Shown here one piece after another: positions 14,382 through 59,670 of a stretch of DNA of 64,000 nt. Made by a program: the position numbers and the translations under genes. The DNA is from Runella defluvii. GTDB taxonomy: Bacteria; Bacteroidota; Bacteroidia; Cytophagales; Spirosomataceae. Location of the stretch: NCBI RefSeq assembly GCF_014195535.1, contig NZ_JACIBY010000006.1, forward strand, positions 62,001 through 126,000. Direction: 5' to 3'. Each line of letters opens with the position of its first letter. Positions within the stretch are counted from its first letter, which is position 1. Under the pieces are notes generated by a model. That model did no database searches, was not told the origin of the DNA, and worked only from the letters and a program-made list of their open reading frames with translations.

Positions 14382-15299
14382 TCATATCCTTTCCCTTTTT
14401 TCAGCGTCAAAAGCGGGTTTTGAGAAACCCTTGGCACGGGCACGGATGCGCTGGGCTACGTACAGCCCTGCCACAACGAGTGCTGTTCCTACAAACGTAT
14501 GCCAAGAAAGAGGTTCTCCCAAAAAAAAAGAAGAATAGGTAAACCCAAAAACGGGACAAAGGAAAAGCCACATCGAAGCTCGCACGGCATCTAAGCGAAG
14601 TAGATAAAACCACAACTGCAACGAAATGACCGAAACGGGAACAATCAACCAGCCTACTGCTCCCCAAAACTGCGCATCCCAACGGGTATGTTCCCAATCG
14701 GCAAAATAAACCGTAAAAGGCAATAACATAATTCCCCCTAACATTACTTGCCAACCATTGATAAGCACGTTGGGTAATCGCCACGAGATGCGGGCATAAT
14801 ACACACTCGCAGCCGATACCGACACAATTCCTGCCATCAAAATAGCTAATCCTCTGGTTGTAGCAAAGCTATTCTGGAGCAAAGGCCAGGTGGCCAACCC
14901 CGCTCCCGAAAGTCCCAACACAACCCCTAGGGCTTCGTTCCACTTTAGACTACGCTGTAGCCATATTGCTGATAAAACAATGACAAACAACGGCCCAGTA
15001 GCCGTGGATAAACTTCCGATGCCCGCCGATACTTCGCGCATCGAAAGCACAAAGGCACTCAAATATAACGTTGTATTGAACAGGGCAAAAATCGCCAATT
15101 GACCCCATTCACGCCCTCGTGGAAGTGTTTTTTCGCTATTGGCAAAGGTATATCCAAAGGTCAACATAAGCGTACCTGCCAGCAAAAACCGAACATTGGC
15201 CAAAATGAGCGGGTCGGCCGAACGAATTCCAAATTTCGTTGCCACGGAAGCTGATGCCCAAAGCATCGCAAAAAGAATTCCTATGAGTGTGTTTTTCAT
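14382..15299 (-). CDS. EamA/DMT-family transporter
   Basis: 305 residues from the ATG at 15299. The upstream ATG at 15323 would add eight residues overlapping a palindromic element. Ten hydrophobic helices make two EamA halves: MKNTLIGILFAMLWASASVA opens the first and GLAILMAGIVSVSAASVYYA the second. Members export amino acids or other metabolites. The C-terminal tail (AKGFSKPAFDAEKRERI) is encoded partly by a palindrome of the TGAG-loop family (14415-14430), suggesting the element has become part of the coding region. Confidence 0.9.
   Translation of the reverse strand: MKNTLIGILFAMLWASASVATKFGIRSADPLILANVRFLLAGTLMLTFGYTFANSEKTLPRGREWGQLAIFALFNTTLYLSAFVLSMREVSAGIGSLSTATGPLFVIVLSAIWLQRSLKWNEALGVVLGLSGAGLATWPLLQNSFATTRGLAILMAGIVSVSAASVYYARISWRLPNVLINGWQVMLGGIMLLPFTVYFADWEHTRWDAQFWGAVGWLIVPVSVISLQLWFYLLRLDAVRASMWLFLCPVFGFTYSSFFLGEPLSWHTFVGTALVVAGLYVAQRIRARAKGFSKPAFDAEKRERI
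14415..14430. repeat. TGAG-loop palindrome inside the 3' end of the DMT transporter gene
   Basis: GGGTTT-TGAG-AAACCC, a perfect 6-bp stem with the loop shared by elements at 17.8 and 52 kb. It encodes part of the transporter's C-terminal tail. Confidence 0.6.
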
Positions 15300-15305
15300 T
15301 GGTAG

Positions 15306-15338
15306 AACTTTCCGAAAGTTCAAACTTTCGAAAAGTTG
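15306..15338. repeat. Overlapping ACTTTC/GAAAGT palindromes
   Basis: Short inverted repeats built from ACTTTC and GAAAGT, between the TPR gene stop and the DMT transporter start. The same core appears in stronger hairpins at 17.7 and 52.2 kb. It may terminate the TPR transcript. Confidence 0.5.
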
Positions 15339-16663: not shown

Positions 16664-17665
16664 ATGCAAAAAGCCATGATAAGTAACCAACAAAATATAC
16701 CAACAAACACGCACGAAGAGTGGCAGAAGTCCATTCCTGCGCAGGTATTCTTGAACCATTTTCGTAGTATAGACTACTACATCCGCCACACCACCCCATT
16801 AGAAGAGGTTCGCCAATTAAGTACCCTTCAACGCTTCAATCCCAAACGAGAAGGAGCACGCGTAGGTGCCGCAAAAAAATGGTTATTGCACGCATGGAGC
16901 GCCGAATATACGCTCCGAACCGCCGCCAATCACGCCGACGAAAACTATCAAAAGCACTCCCTCCACTGGACGTTTCCGCAAGCCTACTATAGTGTCTTGT
17001 ACGGAGCCAAAGCGTTTTTAGCCATCCAAGGAATCGACGTGCCGATTGAAGCCGTCGTGGGGCAAATTATTAACGGGTACGTTGCCAAAGGTTGGTATCC
17101 TGAATCCATTGGATTTTATGTCGATGGGCCGCTAGGACACTATACCTATCATCAATTACCGCAAACTACCGAACCAGCATTGCTCCAACCGCTCGAAACG
17201 CCGAAACAAGCCGAAGCGCACATTGCTCAGTTTTTAAAGACAACGCGTGACTTACGCTTACGGGCTTACCGCCGCCGTTTACAAGCAAACCCCGAAAAAG
17301 CATTGCGCTCAAAAACGGGAAAAATTATCACCAAATTTGGGGCAACACACTGGGAAGAAATCGCCAAACACACGGGGCCAACAACCTACTTTGACCTCAT
17401 GAGTCGGTTGAAAATTTCGGGTACCCAGCGAGAAATTGAGCGTTTTGTGGAAGCCGACATCGACGTGCCTAAGTTTCATCAGTCATTGCTCAATATTGTG
17501 AAATACCTCAACTTTATCCACGAATGTTATGTGGCCAAAGTAATGGGCTTAAAAGCCTATCAACAGTGGATTGAGGAATTGCCTTCGTACTTACGTCAGA
17601 GTTTCCTTCAACAGCGTTACGAAAACGGAATTATCCCCATCGTAAGTGCTGTGACCAAATTCTGA
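16664..17665 (+). CDS. Unknown protein with a HEPN-like stretch
   Basis: 333 residues; initiation could also be at Met5. I do not recognise the whole protein. Residues about 83-125 contain AAKKWLLHAWSAEYTLRTA, then FPQAYYSVLYGAKAFLAIQG. The second stretch resembles the AYYAxFHAxKALL helix of HEPN-domain proteins, some of which are RNases. The basic region 185-225 (RDLRLRAYRRRLQANPEKAL) could bind nucleic acid. The rest is helical. No nucleotidyltransferase partner, common for HEPN proteins, is adjacent. It converges on the MoxR-type ATPase gene across a palindrome-rich gap. Confidence 0.6.
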   Translation: MQKAMISNQQNIPTNTHEEWQKSIPAQVFLNHFRSIDYYIRHTTPLEEVRQLSTLQRFNPKREGARVGAAKKWLLHAWSAEYTLRTAANHADENYQKHSLHWTFPQAYYSVLYGAKAFLAIQGIDVPIEAVVGQIINGYVAKGWYPESIGFYVDGPLGHYTYHQLPQTTEPALLQPLETPKQAEAHIAQFLKTTRDLRLRAYRRRLQANPEKALRSKTGKIITKFGATHWEEIAKHTGPTTYFDLMSRLKISGTQREIERFVEADIDVPKFHQSLLNIVKYLNFIHECYVAKVMGLKAYQQWIEELPSYLRQSFLQQRYENGIIPIVSAVTKF

Positions 17666-17873
17666 GCCATCACGAGGTTTTGAGAATCCACGAGCACTAA
17701 AAAACCTCCCGAAAGTTAGAACTTTCGGGAGGTTGGTATTAAAAAACATCATCACCTGTGTAGTTGGGTACTCATACCCAACCCAGCGGTTTCTCAAAAC
17801 CGCGTGAATCAAAAACCTAAGACATCACGAGGTTTTGGGAAACCGCTTTCGTGGATTTGAGAATCCACGAGCA
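17666..17873. repeat. Cluster of TGAG/CTCA-loop palindromes and a terminator hairpin
   Basis: Between two convergent genes. Palindromes: 17703-17734 (CTCCCGAAAG core), 17763-17782 (GTTGGGTA-CTCA-TACCCAAC), 17786-17803 (GCGGTTT-CTCA-AAACCGC), 17831-17844 (GGTTT-TGGG-AAACC) and 17849-17870 (9-bp stem, TGAG loop). A segment at about 17670-17705 repeats 17825-17885 but lacks the 21 bases between the two TGAG/TGGG loops, as if recombination joined two hairpins. The last repeat unit supplies the stop codon of the ATPase gene. Confidence 0.75.
17703..17734. terminator. Bidirectional terminator between convergent genes
   Basis: A near-perfect palindrome with 15-bp arms (17703-17717 and 17720-17734), GC-rich in the outer part and AT-rich in the middle. 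It lies 37 bases after the plus-strand stop at 17665. The same CCGAAAG/CTTTCGG core occurs in the 52.2-kb terminator. Confidence 0.6.
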
Positions 17874-19391
17874 CTAAAAAACATCGTCATCATCTTCGTC
17901 CTCATCGGGACCCGAAAACATACTGCTCAACAAGTCTTTGAAATGCAGTCCACGGTCCAGCATCTGCTTACCAATGAGCGAGTGTTCGGCCATACCATGC
18001 AGGGCAAACTCCATCATAAATAGTTTTTCTTCCCGACTCAAGCCACGGTGAAAGTCATCCACCAAATCGTCTAATCCTTCAATTGTCTTTAAACGGGCTT
18101 CGTATTCGCGGTTGGTGAGTTCGCTCAAAATATCCATTTCGTTTTCCCCAAACCACTGTTGCACTTTTTGGAATGGATTCTTCGCTCCCTTTCTCTTTTT
18201 TAGAGATTCGGGATTGGGAAAATACGTCAAAAACTGCGTACGAATCGCCTTTCCAATCAGGTTTTGCGCCACAATAACAGGGCCTTCTACTTCGCCTTCA
18301 TAGACCAATTCTACTTTTCCACAAATGGCAGGTACAGCTCCGTACAAATCCGAAATACGTACGTACGCTTCTTTTTCACCGTTGAGCAACACCCGACGTT
18401 CGGCTGCCGAAAGTAAGTTTTCAAAAGCCGCAATCGTCAAACGTGCCGATACCCCACTTTTCGAATCCACGTACTCACTGTCGCGGGCTTCAAAGGCAAT
18501 TTGCTCCACCAAGTCTTTCAGAATTTCGTTGACTTTGACCATACCTTTTTGCTCGGTTTTCACCACCGCTTCTTGCGCCGTAATTTTCTTCCCGATTTCA
18601 AGCGTTTTCGGATAGTGCGTCACAATTTGGCTGTCGATACGGTCTTTCAACGGCGTCACAATACTCCCGCGATTGGTATAATCTTCGGGGTTTGCCGTAA
18701 AAACAAACTGGATATCAAGGGGAAGACGCAGTTTAAAGCCACGAATTTGGATATCGCCTTCCTGCAAAATATTAAACAATGACACCTGGATACGGGCCTG
18801 TAAATCAGGCAATTCATTGATAACAAAAATACAACGGTGCGAGCGCGGAATGAGTCCGAAGTGAATCACGCGTTCGTCCGAATAAGGCAATTTGAGCGTT
18901 GCAGCTTTGATGGGGTCAACGTCCCCAATAAGGTCGGCTACCGATACGTCGGGCGTGGCTAGTTTTTCAGCATATCTCTCCTGACGGTGTACCCACGCAA
19001 TCGGCGTGTGGTCGCCTTTTTCGTCCACAAGATCGCGCGCAAAACGTGAGAGCGGCTGCAACGGGTCGTCGTTTAGTTCCGAGCCTGCCACCACAGGAAT
19101 GTATTCATCGAGCAAATTAACCATCAACCGCGCAATGCGGGTTTTGGCCTGTCCACGAAGCCCTAAAAGGTTGATATGGTGCATCGACAAAATAGCCCGT
19201 TCGACGTCGGGGATAACGGTATCTTCATACCCCCAAATGCCAGGAAAAACAGATTCTTTGGCCCGTAATTTCTCAATAAGGTTATCTCTTAATTCTTGCT
19301 TAATAGATTTGGGCTGATAGCCCGCAGCTTTCAGTTCGCCAAGCGTGTGGAGTTGGAGAAGCTGTTTAGGCTTTAAATCGCGGTAGGCCAT
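17874..19391 (-). CDS. MoxR/magnesium-chelatase-type AAA+ ATPase
   Basis: 505 residues. Walker A is GLRGQAKTR at 77-85, followed by VIHFGLIPRSHRCIFVINE (Walker B region) and the sensor-like QFVFTANPEDYTNRGSIV. The C-terminal third is helical. The tail is very acidic (GPDEDEDDDDVF). The overall layout fits the magnesium chelatase subunit I/MoxR group. These ATPases usually work as chaperone-like rings with a von Willebrand factor A partner, which is not adjacent here. The start at 19391 is the first in-frame ATG. Confidence 0.87.
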   Translation of the reverse strand: MAYRDLKPKQLLQLHTLGELKAAGYQPKSIKQELRDNLIEKLRAKESVFPGIWGYEDTVIPDVERAILSMHHINLLGLRGQAKTRIARLMVNLLDEYIPVVAGSELNDDPLQPLSRFARDLVDEKGDHTPIAWVHRQERYAEKLATPDVSVADLIGDVDPIKAATLKLPYSDERVIHFGLIPRSHRCIFVINELPDLQARIQVSLFNILQEGDIQIRGFKLRLPLDIQFVFTANPEDYTNRGSIVTPLKDRIDSQIVTHYPKTLEIGKKITAQEAVVKTEQKGMVKVNEILKDLVEQIAFEARDSEYVDSKSGVSARLTIAAFENLLSAAERRVLLNGEKEAYVRISDLYGAVPAICGKVELVYEGEVEGPVIVAQNLIGKAIRTQFLTYFPNPESLKKRKGAKNPFQKVQQWFGENEMDILSELTNREYEARLKTIEGLDDLVDDFHRGLSREEKLFMMEFALHGMAEHSLIGKQMLDRGLHFKDLLSSMFSGPDEDEDDDDVF

Positions 19392-20596: not shown

Positions 20597-20618
20597 GTCG
20601 GGGTGTAAGCACCCCGAC
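20597..20618. terminator. Hairpin between convergent genes
   Basis: GTCGGGGTG (20597-20605) pairs perfectly with CACCCCGAC (20610-20618) around a TAAG loop. It lies just after the epimerase stop and before the convergent SDR stop. There is no T-run, so it may be a weak terminator. Confidence 0.5.
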
Positions 20619-20625
20619 CCACTTA

Positions 20626-52002: not shown

Positions 52003-52007
52003 TGTGA

Positions 52008-52256
52008 GCGAGGTTGCTCACAACCTCGCCGTGTTCGGGATTACTCACAACCTCGCTGTGTTCGGGGTTGCTCACAACCCCGATGGTCGTTGAGAAAACA
52101 CCTTTAAAAGAGTTAGCCCCCTCCTTCGTCGGGGTGACAAAAAGGAAAAGATACAACAACAGCGGGAAATCCTACAAACAAAAAGCCCTCCGAAAGCATC
52201 AAAACTTTCGGAGGGCTTTTTGTTTAGGTCAAACGGTAGGTTGTGAGCAACCTACC
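52008..52256. repeat. Tandem 27-bp CTCA palindromes, terminator and TGAG palindrome
   Basis: CTCACAACC recurs at 52017, 52044 and 52071, a 27-base period. The first and third units are perfect palindromes (52008-52029, 9-bp stem; 52063-52082, 8-bp stem). The second is half-mutated. A terminator (52176-52225) follows, then GGTAGGTTG-TGAG-CAACCTACC (52235-52256). These share their loop with the elements at 14.4 and 17.8 kb. Confidence 0.75.
52176..52225. terminator. Bidirectional terminator between the RidA-family gene and sprA
   Basis: A perfect 21-bp stem (52176-52196 with 52205-52225) carrying the CCCTCCGAAAG/CTTTCGGAGGG core and T-runs on both strands, between convergent genes. Confidence 0.85.
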
Positions 52257-52269
52257 TCACATGTATTTA

Positions 52270-55200
52270 CTACAGCTCTGCGACATTGAATCGTACTTGA
52301 ATACCACCAGAAGTAACCGAGCGGCGATACGAGTTAAGTACATACGGGTTGTTAAACGTACGGTCGAAATAAAACTGTAAGCTCCACAATTTGCTCACTG
52401 TATAGTTCAACTGCGGGCGCAACTGGAAGTTATAATTTCCTTGAGTAGCCGTAGGAGGCTCTTCAAAACGGCGCTGAATCGCCCGTGTATCTCTGATGGT
52501 AAAGCTACAGCGGAACTGCAAATCATTTTTCAACTTCTTAAATTCCCCATTGATACGGAACGGAATTCGTACGTTGTTGCGCGTGAAACCAATCGTTGCC
52601 GTTATGTCACGGTTAAACAGCTCTGCCACTTGTGAGTTCGACAAATTGAGTGCCACGTTACGGTCTTGGTTGTAGCTAAACTGCATGTCAATCTTATTCT
52701 GCGTACGGGCACGAATCCCAATCAAAGGCGCAAATTTCTCCGATAGTGAAATCGTACTCATCACAAACACAGGAATGGCTTGACCATTATCTCCTGGTAA
52801 GATTGCCAACGGATAGTTCATCACGGCAAGGTTGACATACATCGACTGATAGTCGAGCGATGACGTGAAATTCCCCACGCTATACGTCGATTGATAGCTA
52901 TGCTCCAAGGTAAATGAGCTAAATATCTTTTTGAAAGCCCCCAACTGCGACAACCCGTTGTAGTCCACTCGCCAGTTTGGCATTGGGAAACCAAGGAATG
53001 GGTTGGTACGTACTTTTGAGGGGTCTTTCTTCGGATCTTTACCATTGTAAGCCGCAAAAAACGCCGCAATCAGTACATCTTGTGAATTAACATTGTAATC
53101 ACCCAGTTTTTCATTAGGATTCTCACGCAGGCGCTTTTCGGTCAAAATCGTCACAAAATCTTCGCGATAGGCTTTGAAGCGGTCGAAAATAGGTGACGTA
53201 TTATCGCTATTAATTTTGGCAAAAGCCGTTCGGAACGACATAAATGACATTTGGAAATTACCGTTACGAATCGGGCTTTGGACTTCGTAAGGCCCGCCTG
53301 GAGTCGATGGCCGATAAAACTCTCGATAGTCATCCCCTCGCGTTAAGGTCGCCGAAATCTGAACCCGAAAATCTTTGAACGGTTCCAAACGGGTGTTCAT
53401 TCGGAACGTCCGATTGAGCGTCTGCATAAACGGTAAGTTGAGCATCGTACTTTTTGTCAACCAACCTCTATCGGCAGCTTCTCGGTGGAAATTGCGGTCT
53501 TGACTTCCCAATACAAAAGGTAATCCAGGGGCATTCATCGCCGCATCTAACCCAAATCGGTTAGGGTCATCGGGCAAAAACCCTGGTAATGTCGTCGTTT
53601 CCTGGCGCGAATAATCCACATCGATACCACGCACCGTCATCAACAAGCGCGTAATGTTTTTCAGCAATTTGCTCGGTTCACGATTTATTTCTTCATCATC
53701 CCCTGGGCTACGCGCAAAGTTTTTCCGCTTAGGCGACGGTGTATTGGCAAAACGTAAGTAGCGAAGTTTGTTGTACAACATCACAAAATCGACTTTCCCA
53801 CGAATGCTTCGGTCTAAGCTATTCCGAATGGTATTTCCGTAAAAAACACCTAGTGTATCGCTGATTCCGAGTGAATTGGCTTGGTATTGATAACCAATAT
53901 TATGGCTATAATCCGCCGTCATCCAGTCGAGCAACGGGATTTTATCCAACGGTAAGCGGTAAGTCAGACGTAGTTTTTGGTCAAAGTTTTTAGTCCGTCC
54001 AAATCGGCGCAAATTGTTCCAAATTGAATCTTGCTTTGCTCGCGTATCAATATCACCTTGAGGCTCATCCACCACGGCATTGGCCAACGCACTGTAGGAT
54101 AACATGATGCTCTTGGTCAAGTTCCACGACACATCGTACGAACGATTGAACAAGAAGTATTTTTCGTACAACGGAGACTGCCCCAATGACGTCAAATCAC
54201 CTGTTCGGTACAACGTCCGAACAAAACTACGGTCGGCATCGAAACGCACTGCCACTTGGGTTGGCAACAACGAAAGATTAAACTCTTTCAACAACTCTAG
54301 GTAAGGACGTTCGAGGCTTTTGACGGTCTTAAACGGCGCCCAAGGTTTTTGCGGGAAGCTGTATTGGTACACTATTCCACCTCGGTATTGGCGTTGGGTA
54401 TAATCTGCCAACAAACTACTGCGGCGCGTTTGCTCATTGAAAGCATAGGTAAACGAGAAGTTTTCAATGTCCCAGAGATGCCGTTTGGCATTCGGCCCTA
54501 CTTTTGTCTTTCGGACGTTTGAGAAGTTGATACCCCGTCGTTCCATTTTTTCGACTGCCGAATTTTCTAGCTGCATCCTGCGGGGGTCATTCTCGGCATA
54601 ATTGGCCAACGAAGTCGCCAGAGGCGTATCAGGGTCGTAAGGGTTAAAATGAGGACGTACTTCGCGCAGGTCGTAGTTGACATACACAGGAATTTTAAAG
54701 CCCCATTGCTGTGGTAAAAACTTATCCAAAGCCAACGCCGACGACAAGCTAAACTCCGTGGTGTTGTCACGAGAGCGGTCGGCGAGTTTTTGCTGAACCC
54801 CACCAAAACCAAAAGTTGTCCATTTTCCAGCTACTTGAATCGTACCCAAATCTGCCAGTTTAATATCGGCCCTAGCGATAGCCGCCGTTCCCGATTGGTT
54901 TTCAAACCCTTGCACGTGCAATTCATTCACCCAAATACAGAAACTTTTCGCCGCCTGGTCATCCGAACGCGGGTTTCGCAAGCCAATCATGGTCACCATG
55001 ATATTACTCAAATCGGGACGTCCTACTACCGTAATTCGATAGATTCGTCCTAACGCATCGGTTTTGGTAATGGTATAAGGTACGGTCAGCGAAGGAGCCG
55101 TTTGTCTGTCACGCTCTTGTTTGGCTTCAATGAGCCATTTCATTTCTATGTCAATCTCGTTTTGCTCGGGCCATACTTGCTCTGGAATATCAGTATTCGG

Positions 55201-58200
55201 GCGAGTCGCGCGTAATTTCGTTACTTCAACTTCATAATAATGCTCCGTCACATCCGTTCCCAAACGCAAGAAAGCCGACACTTGACCGTCTTCGTCTTGA
55301 TCATTGTGCATGTGGACAAACATTTTCAAACGCTCACGGAAAAGCATGTTTTGACTTGTCACGTTTTTGAACGCCGCACGAGAATCACCATCACGAAGGT
55401 TGGTCACGCACAAGCTCATGGCTTGTTCGTTCAATGGGCGTTGGTTTGGCGTGGTATAATCAACGTCACGCTGCCAACCTGGAGGCACAGCATAGATTTG
55501 TTTCTTCGTATCTGAGCCTGCGACTACCTTCGAGCTGTTTTCTTCGGCACTTACGGTCGCAATCTTAAATTGAGCATCGTAAGGTTCAGGCACTTCTTGC
55601 AAACCTTTGGCATTGAGGTCGCCTGTATATTTACGGTATTGCGTTGCCACCATTTGAAGTTGAGCAAAGCGAAGTACCACAGGATTATCCCAATCTGTCA
55701 TGTACAGACGAATAAATCGAATGGATTTAAACCCGTTGATATTACCCACCTTGCGCGTAAACTCGCGTACGGGAATACGGAACAAATACCAGTTAACGTT
55801 GTCTCCTGCCCCGTTGGAAGCGGTTACTTTATCAACGATATATGGCTTCCCAACGTCGAGTTGGCCAGGTTTTAGATCAACTTCATACTCATAATACGCT
55901 TCTTGGTCGTTGATGGTATTGTCGGTATTGAGGTCTTCTCCGTCGGGTAAGTTAGTAGCCGCTTCGGTAATCGCGTTAGTACGTTCAAACTCAGGGGTAT
56001 TGTTTTCCGTCCCCATGTAGTTTTTATAACGCTCTACAATTTTCTTATTGGCGCTATCGGCTTTGGCACTAAAATAAAACTCAAAGTCGTCACCAGAGGG
56101 GTCAGCCGCAATTCTTTGACGGGCTTCTGTCTTTAGATTAGCGGGCAAACTTTGAAGATAATTATTAAAGAAGGTACGTTCTTCGGCGTTATTCAAACCA
56201 TCTAGCCCAATATCTTGCTTTTCTCGCGCGCCAGGCTGATTGGTAAAGGCATTAATAATAAACTGTTGACGAGTGCTGTATCCCCAAGGAGTCTGAGCTA
56301 CCGTTGCAGTTGGTTGAGTTGCCGTAGGAGTCGTCGTCTTCTCTCCAACAGGCAAGCCGTTCTCGAAGTCGTAACGTCCGTTTTTCATTACGTCTTCCGA
56401 AATTTCTCCCAAGTTAAAAAACAGCTTACCTCCCGTTACGTTATTTTTGTTAACAAAGCCATCTTTTACAACCCCATTCACCCCTTCTTTGAATGGATCC
56501 ATCATCCAAAATTCCAAGATTTCGACGTTGGCATTGTCAAAGTCCACATCAGATCCAATGGCACGAGTAATAGCCCCAAAGTTCTTACGGGGATTGCGCA
56601 AGCGCCCGTCAGGATCAAGGTCTGGGTTATAGTTGTACTGCCCACGCTCGCTTGGGAAGTAGGCAACGTCGAGAATATTTTCTGGCAAATTCACTAAGTA
56701 CAAGCCCCGTCCTGTGAAGATTTCTTGCGGTGTAAACAAGCGCTCATACACGTTGTTAAAATCTTCTTGAACAATATTGGGTCGTTGCGGAAGGCCAATC
56801 TGGGCATTGGGAGAAAACGAAATATCAATGGAATAGGCAGAAATTTTTGCCCGATTGTGCCCATATTCTAGCGGATTAGCGAGTGTTCCCTGAGGAAATT
56901 GTTGAGGAGTTCCTCCCATCCGCCAGCGGGTTGGCTGGCGGGTAAGGTCGTACTGAGTACGTGCCGACTCAAAGTCATCGACCACAATACGGTTTCGTAC
57001 CTGTGGGTGCAAACCTGCAAATGACTGCGCAACCTCGCCCTGAAACTGAATACTTGACATTTCTTTGGTCTGAATCAACGGCAGTTTATCCAGTAATTTT
57101 GTCAAGAACGGCGCGTCTTTGCGGAACGTAAAGTCGGCCCCAATAATGCTGTTGCTGACGGGGTCGTTACCCAAAGCGGCGCGCGTCAAAAACCCTGCGG
57201 GCGTTTCGCGTAAGCGCATGGCCGTCATCCCTACTTGCACGTGGCGATTGATGGTATAATTGAGACGAGTTCCTAACAAGGTACGAATCTGGTTTTGGAA
57301 CAAATCGGGCTGTTCGTAGCAAACTTCAATATCACGGCCTGAGTTAATTACACTTTCGTTCATAATTCGCACCGCCGACTGTCCTTCGACCATGTAATCG
57401 ACGCCTGGCGTAAGTTGAACGCCGCCCGCCCGCACAATCACCGATTTTTCGGACACCCCGAATGGCAAAGGCACCGTTGCCCCTCCCATCGAACCTTGGT
57501 ACGAACCTTTCAAGAAATACTTGTTTTTCTCCGTAATCTGCTGTGCATCAATCTGGGTAGAGCGATAGAGTTCATTAAAAACGTACTTGTTGGCAAGCAC
57601 TTCATCGCCCGTAAATTGTTTGGCTAAATTTGTTCCAAATGGCTCCAACACTGGAAAAATAATCCGTCCGTAACGGCTATCAACGGTGGTACCGTCGATA
57701 AAGTCAAAGTTTCCGTCCCCAATAGGTTTGCGGTTATTGTCCAAAACGGGGTCATTGAGGGGGTTCAATTTATCAAGCCCCATCACGCGTAGCAACGGGA
57801 TATTGGCAATAGGCCCTTCCTGTAAGTTAGGAATATCCATCCCCGTTATATCATCCTTATAAATGACCCGAAGTTGAAAATTCTGTTTCCCCAATTGTGT
57901 GGTATTGAGCGAATAGATGTTTTTCATCATCAAATTCCACATGGGATGATTGGTATTGTTACGAATCGTCGATGACTTCAACAATTTCAATACCAATATT
58001 TGGTCTTCAGGACGAGCCTGGTAATCTTCGGTCAACTCCCCTACTTTATATTTTTGTCCGTTAAGGGTATATTCATAAGCAACGGCCAAAATTTCATCGT
58101 TCCGAAGGGGTGTCAAAAGCGACATATAGCCCAGTTCGGGATGAAACTTAAACTCCCGCTCACTCAAACGCCGTGCTCCTCGCAACACATCATAGTCATC

Positions 58201-59670
58201 GCCACGGCGAAGGTTGTACGACTGCTCCATGGCCGTACTTGTTTGGTCGGCTTGGCGTACGTTGGCATCTGTCGTAATTTTTTGGTACAACCCATTCGAT
58301 TTATTGTCCAACGGGCGCGTTGCCGCAATCGGTTGAACGTTCGGGTTGGCGGTATTAAACGGCTTAGGTTCACCCAAATCAGACAAACCGACAAGGTTAC
58401 GCAGGGTTTCGGTGTTGTTGGTACGGTTGGTCACATATACTTCCAAACGCGTAACTGTTACTCCCGACATAATCATTGGCAAGTTACCCAACCAACGCTC
58501 GTAGTTCTCGCGGAAATATTGTCCTAAGAAAAAGTGGCGATTTTCGTCGTAAGCATCGGCACGAATTTCAAACTGACGGTTTTGGGCTCCTCCCCGCAAT
58601 GTAATACACTGCTGACGAGAGCGTTGTTGTGAAGCTACGACCGTCGCGGTTAAACGTCCAAAACGAAGGTCAACTTTTGCTCCAAACAAATTCTGTACCC
58701 CAGGAATCAACTGAGAAGGAATTTGCCAGTTGACATTCCCTGCCTGAATACCTTGAATAATACTTTCGTTTTCGGGAATATAATCAAGTGGGCCAGTTCC
58801 CATTTGACCGACACCCATCCCTTGTTGATTTAAGCCATTCTGTACCCCTTGGCCCAAACCCGCCCCGTTGGGCATGTTAGGCACATTAGGCAGGTTTTGG
58901 TTCACTTTCCCTGGACGGTAATCGAGTTTCAGCTGATTTTCAAAATTGAAACTCGACTTGGTATCGAAGTTGGTCAACAAACCCAATTTATCGCCAATCT
59001 TCCCATTGAAGTTGACGTTGATTTGTTCGTTAAAAATAAAGTTAGTAGCCCGACGCTGACGAATGGGAATAAGCGGGTTATCGGTTTCTTGGTGCATGAC
59101 GCCAAAATCCAACAACACAAACCCGTTGGGTTTAAAGTCAATACCACTACTACCAAAGATTCGGTCGAACCCTGGTGGCAAATCCAATTTAGGCAATAAG
59201 CCCTTGGCTCCCAACGCCCCTTTTCCATCTTGCTTCGATGAATAATCACGCCAGAGGTAATTAAAAACGCGACGGTCCTGCAACTTCTGAAAATCCTCAT
59301 AGGTCATACTCAGAGGATTACGGTAGTTGAGTGGCGGCGCTTTAGGATCACCTATACGCTCATAGACCGACATTCGTCGGTTGGTGTCTAATCGAAACTC
59401 ATTGGTGAGGCTTTTAGGCTCACGTAAAAAAAGTGAGGAACGAGGAGGAACATAATTGAAACGATTGCTTGGGCGATCGTCCCAACGAGAGTACAGAAAT
59501 CGCCGACTTTGACGGTTCTCACGGCTAGTGTCTTGAACGGCTGTTCTCCGACTTTGGTTAGAAGTCTGAGCCTCAGCAGATTCGGCACCCAGCCACAAGG
59601 CGGTTGACAAACTGGCGATAGCGTACGATTTAACAGAACTAGAATAGAATTTTTGTGTAATAATGCCCAC
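52270..59670 (-). CDS. sprA: Cell-surface protein SprA (type IX secretion outer-membrane translocon)
   Basis: 2466 residues with a signal peptide (ending AESAEAQ at about 35). It forms the giant 36-strand outer-membrane channel of the type IX secretion system needed for gliding and for export of CTD-tagged proteins. Family features are repeated DUF3733/SprA_N-like regions: LLPKLDLPPGFDRIFGSSG, then GRIIFPVLEPFG, and later VVDDFESARTQYDLT and NINVKGFxSI-like strands. The C-terminus ends in an aromatic-rich strand. The length is typical. It is monocistronic here and ends at a strong bidirectional terminator. Its presence implies the other T9SS genes exist elsewhere. Confidence 0.95.
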   Translation of the reverse strand: MGIITQKFYSSSVKSYAIASLSTALWLGAESAEAQTSNQSRRTAVQDTSRENRQSRRFLYSRWDDRPSNRFNYVPPRSSLFLREPKSLTNEFRLDTNRRMSVYERIGDPKAPPLNYRNPLSMTYEDFQKLQDRRVFNYLWRDYSSKQDGKGALGAKGLLPKLDLPPGFDRIFGSSGIDFKPNGFVLLDFGVMHQETDNPLIPIRQRRATNFIFNEQINVNFNGKIGDKLGLLTNFDTKSSFNFENQLKLDYRPGKVNQNLPNVPNMPNGAGLGQGVQNGLNQQGMGVGQMGTGPLDYIPENESIIQGIQAGNVNWQIPSQLIPGVQNLFGAKVDLRFGRLTATVVASQQRSRQQCITLRGGAQNRQFEIRADAYDENRHFFLGQYFRENYERWLGNLPMIMSGVTVTRLEVYVTNRTNNTETLRNLVGLSDLGEPKPFNTANPNVQPIAATRPLDNKSNGLYQKITTDANVRQADQTSTAMEQSYNLRRGDDYDVLRGARRLSEREFKFHPELGYMSLLTPLRNDEILAVAYEYTLNGQKYKVGELTEDYQARPEDQILVLKLLKSSTIRNNTNHPMWNLMMKNIYSLNTTQLGKQNFQLRVIYKDDITGMDIPNLQEGPIANIPLLRVMGLDKLNPLNDPVLDNNRKPIGDGNFDFIDGTTVDSRYGRIIFPVLEPFGTNLAKQFTGDEVLANKYVFNELYRSTQIDAQQITEKNKYFLKGSYQGSMGGATVPLPFGVSEKSVIVRAGGVQLTPGVDYMVEGQSAVRIMNESVINSGRDIEVCYEQPDLFQNQIRTLLGTRLNYTINRHVQVGMTAMRLRETPAGFLTRAALGNDPVSNSIIGADFTFRKDAPFLTKLLDKLPLIQTKEMSSIQFQGEVAQSFAGLHPQVRNRIVVDDFESARTQYDLTRQPTRWRMGGTPQQFPQGTLANPLEYGHNRAKISAYSIDISFSPNAQIGLPQRPNIVQEDFNNVYERLFTPQEIFTGRGLYLVNLPENILDVAYFPSERGQYNYNPDLDPDGRLRNPRKNFGAITRAIGSDVDFDNANVEILEFWMMDPFKEGVNGVVKDGFVNKNNVTGGKLFFNLGEISEDVMKNGRYDFENGLPVGEKTTTPTATQPTATVAQTPWGYSTRQQFIINAFTNQPGAREKQDIGLDGLNNAEERTFFNNYLQSLPANLKTEARQRIAADPSGDDFEFYFSAKADSANKKIVERYKNYMGTENNTPEFERTNAITEAATNLPDGEDLNTDNTINDQEAYYEYEVDLKPGQLDVGKPYIVDKVTASNGAGDNVNWYLFRIPVREFTRKVGNINGFKSIRFIRLYMTDWDNPVVLRFAQLQMVATQYRKYTGDLNAKGLQEVPEPYDAQFKIATVSAEENSSKVVAGSDTKKQIYAVPPGWQRDVDYTTPNQRPLNEQAMSLCVTNLRDGDSRAAFKNVTSQNMLFRERLKMFVHMHNDQDEDGQVSAFLRLGTDVTEHYYEVEVTKLRATRPNTDIPEQVWPEQNEIDIEMKWLIEAKQERDRQTAPSLTVPYTITKTDALGRIYRITVVGRPDLSNIMVTMIGLRNPRSDDQAAKSFCIWVNELHVQGFENQSGTAAIARADIKLADLGTIQVAGKWTTFGFGGVQQKLADRSRDNTTEFSLSSALALDKFLPQQWGFKIPVYVNYDLREVRPHFNPYDPDTPLATSLANYAENDPRRMQLENSAVEKMERRGINFSNVRKTKVGPNAKRHLWDIENFSFTYAFNEQTRRSSLLADYTQRQYRGGIVYQYSFPQKPWAPFKTVKSLERPYLELLKEFNLSLLPTQVAVRFDADRSFVRTLYRTGDLTSLGQSPLYEKYFLFNRSYDVSWNLTKSIMLSYSALANAVVDEPQGDIDTRAKQDSIWNNLRRFGRTKNFDQKLRLTYRLPLDKIPLLDWMTADYSHNIGYQYQANSLGISDTLGVFYGNTIRNSLDRSIRGKVDFVMLYNKLRYLRFANTPSPKRKNFARSPGDDEEINREPSKLLKNITRLLMTVRGIDVDYSRQETTTLPGFLPDDPNRFGLDAAMNAPGLPFVLGSQDRNFHREAADRGWLTKSTMLNLPFMQTLNRTFRMNTRLEPFKDFRVQISATLTRGDDYREFYRPSTPGGPYEVQSPIRNGNFQMSFMSFRTAFAKINSDNTSPIFDRFKAYREDFVTILTEKRLRENPNEKLGDYNVNSQDVLIAAFFAAYNGKDPKKDPSKVRTNPFLGFPMPNWRVDYNGLSQLGAFKKIFSSFTLEHSYQSTYSVGNFTSSLDYQSMYVNLAVMNYPLAILPGDNGQAIPVFVMSTISLSEKFAPLIGIRARTQNKIDMQFSYNQDRNVALNLSNSQVAELFNRDITATIGFTRNNVRIPFRINGEFKKLKNDLQFRCSFTIRDTRAIQRRFEEPPTATQGNYNFQLRPQLNYTVSKLWSLQFYFDRTFNNPYVLNSYRRSVTSGGIQVRFNVAEL

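Follow-up and report, generated by a model that had tools for sequence, protein, structure and literature searches.

A fixed-loop, free-stem hairpin family in Runella defluvii that very probably represents REP/REPIN elements served by a RAYT transposase

The closest described relatives of the hairpins reported here are the REPINs and BIMEs that accompany RAYTs in Pseudomonas and E. coli: short, 5′-tagged palindromes that form inverted pairs, lie in intergenic regions and gather in tandem clusters, with the RAYT gene located within or next to one of the clusters formed by its repeats (PMC3116915, PMC2817692; both used in part). In the part of the 2010 study by Nunvar that we draw on, RAYTs conforming to the criteria applied there were found only in gammaproteobacteria, and all REPs carried GT(A/G)G heads (PMC2817692). 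The GTAG and CGTC REP super-families were defined by their tags and grouped by stem and loop, with stems of mostly 6 to 9 bp, compensatory stem variants, clusters, and a location in convergent or unidirectional gaps, as far as given in the sections used (Di Nocera 2013; PMC3733652). For Bacteroidota, the corresponding sections of the 2018 survey by Quentin describe RAYT subclass 2.6 (group 5 of Bertels), which is mostly from Bacteroidetes and has atypical flanking structures without GT[AG]G; the structures of this subclass were found by manual inspection (PMC6006769). The main text of RepRanger, in the portion available, does not mention Runella (PMC12306157).

The window (the whole stretch of 64,000 nucleotides that was analysed) contains at 17668–17874 a four-hairpin REPIN-like element (17758–17874) and the remnant of a second half. 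The locus is flanked by two converging open frames (16664–17665, plus strand; 17874–19391, minus strand). The following features were assigned at the locus and elsewhere in the window.

17668–17697, minus strand: remnant half element after a 22-nt deletion, with mismatched arms GAGGTTT and AATCCACG around TGAG and the tag CAC at 17695–17697.
17703–17734, no strand: terminator-like 15-bp hairpin, AACCTCCCGAAAGTT...AACTTTCGGGAGGTT, a separate repeat and not a family member.
17758–17874: REPIN-like unit, GTG-H1*(CTCA)-H2*(CTCA)-spacer-H2(TGGG on plus)-H1(TGAG on plus)-CAC, tags outside.
17758–17782, plus strand: tagged hairpin H1*, GTG at 17758–17760, stem 17763–17770/17775–17782, loop CTCA at 17771–17774; 17763–17782 reads GTTGGGTA-CTCA-TACCCAAC.
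17786–17803, plus strand: untagged hairpin H2*, GCGGTTT-CTCA-AAACCGC.
17831–17844, minus strand: untagged hairpin H2, GGTTT-TGGG-AAACC on the plus strand, loop CCCA on the minus strand.
17849–17874, minus strand: tagged hairpin H1, 9-bp stem, loop CTCA on the minus strand, GTG tag 17874–17872; 17849–17870 reads TCGTGGATT-TGAG-AATCCACGA.
14415–14437, minus strand: family member, tag GTG 14437–14435, GGGTTT-CTCA-AAACCC on the minus strand.
20597–20622, minus strand: family member with a CTTA loop, tag GTG 20622–20620.
52004–52029, plus strand: family member, tag GTG, GCGAGGTTG-CTCA-CAACCTCGC.
52058–52083, plus strand: family member, tag GTG, TCGGGGTTG-CTCA-CAACCCCGA.
52235–52260, minus strand: family member, tag GTG 52260–52258, GGTAGGTTG-CTCA-CAACCTACC on the minus strand.

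Read on the minus strand from 17874, GTGC is followed by H1 (CTCA), H2 (CCCA), the spacer and the inverted H2* and H1*, ending with the H1* tag at 17758. The neighbour orders of this unit are also common in other arrays of the same genome (G000). The original prediction had counted five palindromes in 208 bases. Four of them are family hairpins; the fifth (17703–17734) is of another kind, so that the hairpins named there resolve into parts of one REPIN-like unit and one terminator-like repeat. The AACCTCCCGAAAGTT hairpin was initially taken as a family member and then rejected, as it lacks a CTCA/TGAG loop; it is listed at about 30 other places in G000 and constitutes a second repeated palindrome family. 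The members proposed at 14.4 and 52 kb proved real, each with a GTG tag spaced from the loop as in the rest of the family, and the CTTA member at 20597–20622 had been absent from the prediction. Compared with Rfam at gathering scores, the window yielded only a tRNA and thus no described RNA family. Some members showed features of their own. The member at 14415–14437 sits within the final codons of a predicted EamA-type transporter frame (14382–15323), and the related genome G010 has an additional 74-nt copy of the surrounding stretch. The G010 counterpart of the member at 20597–20622 has the same stem and a reverse-complemented loop (TAAG in G000, CTTA in G010 on the aligned strand), as if the loop had been flipped. 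A minus-strand open frame (52270–59670, 2466 aa), whose final 776 aa gave no Pfam match, adjoins the three members near 52 kb.

The family extends far beyond the window. GGTTTTGAGAAACC has 251 exact matches in the 7.99-Mb G000 genome and none for the reversed control, and a 20-nt pattern that includes it, searched with at most 3 mismatches, was found at 107 places against 1. For unbiased counts we used 1.246 Mb of G000 chosen regardless of hairpins (C6:1-446000, which contains the window, and C1:1-800000). Among the 147 hairpins with four-base loops and stems of at least 7 bp in this sample, 41 had a CTCA/TGAG loop and the next class comprised 7, while five first-order Markov shuffles yielded 0, 0, 0, 1 and 1 CTCA/TGAG hairpins; C6:1-446000 alone gave 17 with stems of at least 6 bp, compared to a mean of 0.8 in ten shuffles. 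This strong excess of hairpins with a fixed loop and variable stems agrees with the prediction that they form one family, for which a comparison with shuffled sequence had been suggested. A profile of the 64 CTCA-oriented hairpins with stems of at least 6 bp in the 1.246 Mb revealed a ruler, which runs from GTG through five free bases to GG, three further bases, the loop CTCA and the complement. The tag bases G, T and G at −13, −12 and −11 were present at 56, 54 and 51 of the 64 sites and can pair in longer stems. They are followed by five variable bases, GG (63/64 each), three positions holding mostly T, invariably T, and T, G or A, respectively, and the loop. GTG stood exactly 5 nt ahead of GG in 57 of 72 cores in G000 (1.246 Mb) and in 30 of 35 cores in G010 (0.8 Mb), and therefore the distance from tag to loop is kept regardless of stem length.

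Pairing was scored in a non-circular way, by picking sites from their left half alone (GTG-N5-GGNNN-CTCA) and then evaluating the right half. Of 65 such sites in G000, 50 paired over at least 6 bp and displayed 40 different 9-nt stems; pairing per base was 0.92–0.97 for the five inner bases and then 0.85, 0.63, 0.63 and 0.60. The same procedure in G010 (0.8 Mb) gave 36 sites, 28 of them paired, with 23 stems. Control loops CTGA, ACTC, CACT, TCCA and CCTA produced 4 to 6 sites each in G000, none of which paired. CTTA and TGAG gave 2 paired of 9 each, and CTCC gave 9 of 13 and looks like a variant of the family. Long perfect stems of up to 26 bp, most of them palindromic through the tag, were also observed (G000:C1:325471, C1:742729; L223 1486; L227 1384). 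Hairpins of this palindromic kind (C1:325471, L227) resemble the double-foot REPs of RAYT subclass 2.4 as described in the consulted part of PMC6006769 and are a minority form here. Runs of about 90 to 100 N lie within hairpin arrays (L017 10115–10206, L026 10252–10349); they are probably assembly gaps, and the G000 array lengths may therefore be minimum values.

The arrangement of the hairpins was analysed in the 1.246 Mb of G000 together with 18 of 20 array regions, which held 177 tagged and 109 untagged hairpins. The commonest neighbour pairs were untagged-tagged on the minus strand (44), tagged-tagged back to back (35), tagged-untagged on the plus strand (30) and untagged plus-minus (22). 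These counts indicate that the usual half unit consists of two hairpins and that two halves face each other with the tags outside; the loops of tagged and untagged neighbours mostly lie 22 to 23 nt apart, which is the commonest pair spacing. Units occur singly or in tandem arrays and are mostly intergenic. The family thus comprises short palindromes in many, mostly intergenic copies, with a conserved tag at the 5′ foot and, as in REPINs, inverted pairs. It shares with the GTAG and CGTC super-families the range of stem lengths, the compensatory variants, the clusters and the type of gap. Differences are, however, evident. The half unit is a double hairpin, and the loop is constant and the stem largely free, unlike the REPINs and BIMEs in the sources used. 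The tag is neither GT[AG]G nor GTAG and, by the position profile, not CGTC: its third base is G (51/64) and its fourth is free, mostly C, T or A (C 22, T 19, A 16, G 7 of 64). We therefore keep the Runella family outside the GTAG super-family.

A candidate enzyme is encoded elsewhere in the genome. One of seven Y1 transposase matches in G000, the gene at C4:567261-567800 (outside the window), lies inside an array of 27 TGAG/CTCA hairpins with stems of at least 6 bp, so that the gene is flanked by REPs of its own. The protein carries the HUH and tyrosine motifs NHIH and YMHNNP and scored 101.6 bits against the curated model NF047646 (REP-associated tyrosine transposase; cut-off 80). Its predicted structure (mean pLDDT 84.4, 14-row alignment) had as its best PDB match in Foldseek 4er8, the E. 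coli TnpAREP with a REP hairpin (E 1.4e-8, TM 0.65–0.70), which was marginal by sequence alone (E 0.074). The C4 protein is a RAYT, a one-tyrosine HUH single-strand transposase, and would bind and mobilise the REPs. Similar hairpins flank the orthologous RAYT in G010, in G003, in G016 of a second genus, and in others. A scan of named genomes assigned the G003 contig to Runella limosa DSM 17973, which sets the genus as Runella; the R. limosa orthologue of the RAYT is 94% identical. The clade may be close to subclass 2.6 (motifs NH[LIV]H, WQ and YIH[QN]NP), which is likewise from Bacteroidota, shares NH[LIV]H, YIH/YMH-[NT]NP and SS motifs in about 180 aa, and has flanking structures without a GT[AG]G consensus and with copies elsewhere. 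Most rows of the Runella clade have NHIH, and mostly YMHNNP, YIHNNP, YIHTNP or YMHTNP; in contrast to subclass 2.6, WD, WE or WT stands where WQ is expected, and the part of the survey used gives no loop, tag or ruler for the flanking structures (PMC6006769). A second RAYT of the window's genome (L043, G000:C2:562207) belongs to another clade and is flanked by GAA- and GCA-loop hairpins.

The distribution of RAYT and hairpins was surveyed in 222 genomes of the taxonomic family, with genomes called copy-rich at four or more exact cores and a RAYT accepted at an E value of 1e-25 or better. Twenty-two genomes were copy-rich, 13 had a RAYT and 12 had both. Copy-rich genomes thus made up 12 of 13 with a RAYT versus 10 of 209 without (Fisher p 4e-13, shared ancestry ignored) and, within the two genera concerned, 12 of 12 versus 10 of 37. 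Copies numbered 24 to 251 in the nine genomes with an uninterrupted RAYT and 20 to 35 in the three with a broken or partial one. The copy-rich genomes without a close RAYT were G203 (104 copies), G216 (82), G012 (35), G200 (33), G205 (30), G202 (21), G009 (18), G011 (16), G196 (15) and G222 (10). Looser searches in all ten detected distant RAYTs only, or none. The idea that these genomes hold a diverged RAYT of the same loop class was not supported, as the flanks of the distant RAYTs show other loops. In G203 and G216, the enzyme may have been lost, or another one may mobilise the copies. In G147, which lacks exact cores, the RAYT relative is interrupted by an in-frame stop; at its locus L228, this CTCA-clade RAYT is flanked by hairpins whose GTG spacing is unchanged but whose loops have three bases (CCC, ACG).

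Loop classes followed the RAYT phylogeny. The RAYTs of G000, G010, G003 and several species of the second genus had CTCA or CTTA hairpins on their flanks, and in most of those examined GTG stood at the same distance (L223 is an exception). More distant RAYTs had other loops, namely TGC or TGT (e.g., L081, L082, L084, L090 and L097), AGA/TCT (L087, L229, L231, L234) or GGA (L101), and several RAYT loci displayed different stems with one common loop. In a tree of 42 RAYTs, 28 of them labelled, the CTCA/CTTA class formed one clade (7/7, SH-aLRT 99); the tree came from a quick search and contains long branches and near-copies, and loop labels were assigned by a simple majority rule. All loop labels together required 13 changes, compared to 18.8 in shuffles, of which 0 of 200 were as low. 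The three-base classes ACA, AGA, GCA and GGA were individually not significantly clustered on this tree. We tentatively propose, with the chances somewhat against it, a loop code in which each Bacteroidota RAYT clade reads its own loop at a fixed distance from the foot tag and is indifferent to most of the stem, with CTCA/CTTA here and three-base loops such as TGC, TGT and TCT elsewhere.

The shortened copy at the window locus provided a view of how the arrays change. The original prediction had the left copy as the right copy minus 21 bases; the shortened copy is real, and what the left copy (from 17668) lacks relative to the right one (from 17823) is exactly 22 nt; the junction can be placed at five equivalent positions. 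In G010 and G003 this half is complete, and because relatives carry the full form, the 22-nt shortening in G000 is a deletion. The other copy is full in G000 and G003 and lacks 22 nt in G010. Thus, two separate deletions of one hairpin step occurred in sister species, and the 22-nt distance between the loops of H1 and H2 matches the size of the scar. The alignment of G000 with G010 (647,578 nt, identity roughly 94%) contained 238 indels of 12 nt or more. Nineteen had a hairpin core in their 30-nt context, although two of these (C6:44004, 305982) look incidental and lie in coding sequence; in six of the 19 the loop lay inside the breakpoint repeat, and several showed no clear repeat. The array indels fit slippage between direct repeats. 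Slippage between direct repeats that contain the loop suffices to explain the deletions, which leaves the predicted recombination of neighbouring hairpins at the loop itself unsupported. Variation at these sites, which was to be expected if the family spreads or recombines, was seen between species (G000, G010 and G003).

Such scars are also what would be expected if replication slippage and gene conversion alone amplified and reshuffled the hairpins without any transposase. This explanation is in line with the absence of new insertions in the parts of G000 and G010 compared. The G000 stretches held 39 hairpin clusters, and for 18 of these the G010 position could be located, with 16 intact and 2 point-mutated counterparts there; the 18 clusters of the G010 stretches had 16 intact and 2 point-mutated counterparts in G000. 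No empty site was found in the sister species for any of these 18 and 18 mappable clusters. The four clusters without an intact counterpart (two per species) had been considered as clean whole-unit insertions and were rejected, as each has a point-mutated hairpin in place. Since every mappable cluster has a counterpart, turnover within arrays is visible and recent transposition is not, so that of the predicted spread or recombination the spread remains inferred. Slippage, however, is unable to carry units to many unlinked loci, RAYT presence and copy number go together, and among the labelled rows the CTCA/CTTA loop class is confined to one RAYT clade. We therefore consider purely passive repeats very unlikely and return to REP/REPIN elements served by the RAYT.

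The position of the hairpins relative to genes bears on a further explanation, in which selection by the host maintains RNA or terminator hairpins at transcript 3′ ends and the RAYT is incidental. With genes taken as open frames of 150 aa or more, 51 of 57 sites were intergenic, though 88.5% of the sequence is coding; sites cluster, and the 57 placements are therefore not independent cases. The 51 intergenic sites lie 3′ of genes, 24 in convergent, 27 in tandem and 0 in divergent gaps, compared to 86, 284 and 116 available gaps of at least 60 nt, as terminators would. Yet the position profile has no strong T-run after the hairpin, and a terminator needs no invariant loop, no GTG tag at a fixed distance and no inverted double units. 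The AAA-type neighbour gene of the window locus was found in 13 relatives. Its gap contains a hairpin array as in G000 in G010 and G003 and one decayed hairpin in G007, whereas nine relatives (eight Runella genomes and G016) keep the gene with a plain terminator-like hairpin and no family hairpin in the same gap; G004 was left out, as its match ends before the gene end. A host-maintained terminator function is thus extremely unlikely as the explanation of the family. MITEs that depend on a transposase other than a RAYT, for instance one of the remaining Y1 elements of the genome, have, judged on the Y1 loci, next to no chance of being the answer: five further Y1 matches exist that are non-RAYT-like (L037–L039) or cut by contig ends (L040, L041), but TGAG/CTCA hairpins of at least 6 bp were absent from the examined flanks of all six other Y1_Tnp loci.

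Taken together, the observation behind the original prediction is confirmed and its interpretation supported: the hairpins are very probably REP/REPIN elements, short non-autonomous repeats served by the C4 RAYT, and the family, which occurs in Runella and a sister genus, most likely depends on this RAYT encoded elsewhere in the genome. In the proposed mechanism, hairpins would fold when DNA is single stranded, e.g., on the lagging strand. The features read by the RAYT would be the GTG foot, the GG/CC step and, at a set spacing, the loop, and other stem positions would matter little; by cutting and joining, the enzyme would slowly copy units to new intergenic sites. Slippage between co-oriented hairpins, or recombination at their short homologies, would lengthen or shorten settled units, and the 22-nt scar would be a product of such an event.

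The array-embedded RAYT, the copy-number association and the match of loop and clade amount to a type of REP/RAYT system that has been described only in outline for Bacteroidota. No description of a CTCA-loop family was found among the matches listed in searches of the REP, RAYT and REPIN literature (some combined with Bacteroidetes, Runella, Spirosoma or Cytophagales), a body of text with few subscription papers. The fixed loop with a free stem, the ruler, the double-hairpin half unit and the loop-clade match are apparently new, and some sequences of the Runella family may be listed in the supplements of the 2018 survey, of which only part was used (PMC6006769). The REP/RAYT literature covered deals mostly with Proteobacteria and GT[AG]G tags. 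With tag, loop and distance fixed and the stem free, the features that a RAYT may read can be told apart from those it disregards, and the 40 stems, several loops and several RAYT clades provide natural variants for a binding test. Within these genomes, tandem hairpins lose single units in parallel in sister species. If the loop code holds, the identity of the loop, and not the stem sequence, would set which hairpins a RAYT may mobilise, and stems could drift while the hairpins stay substrates.
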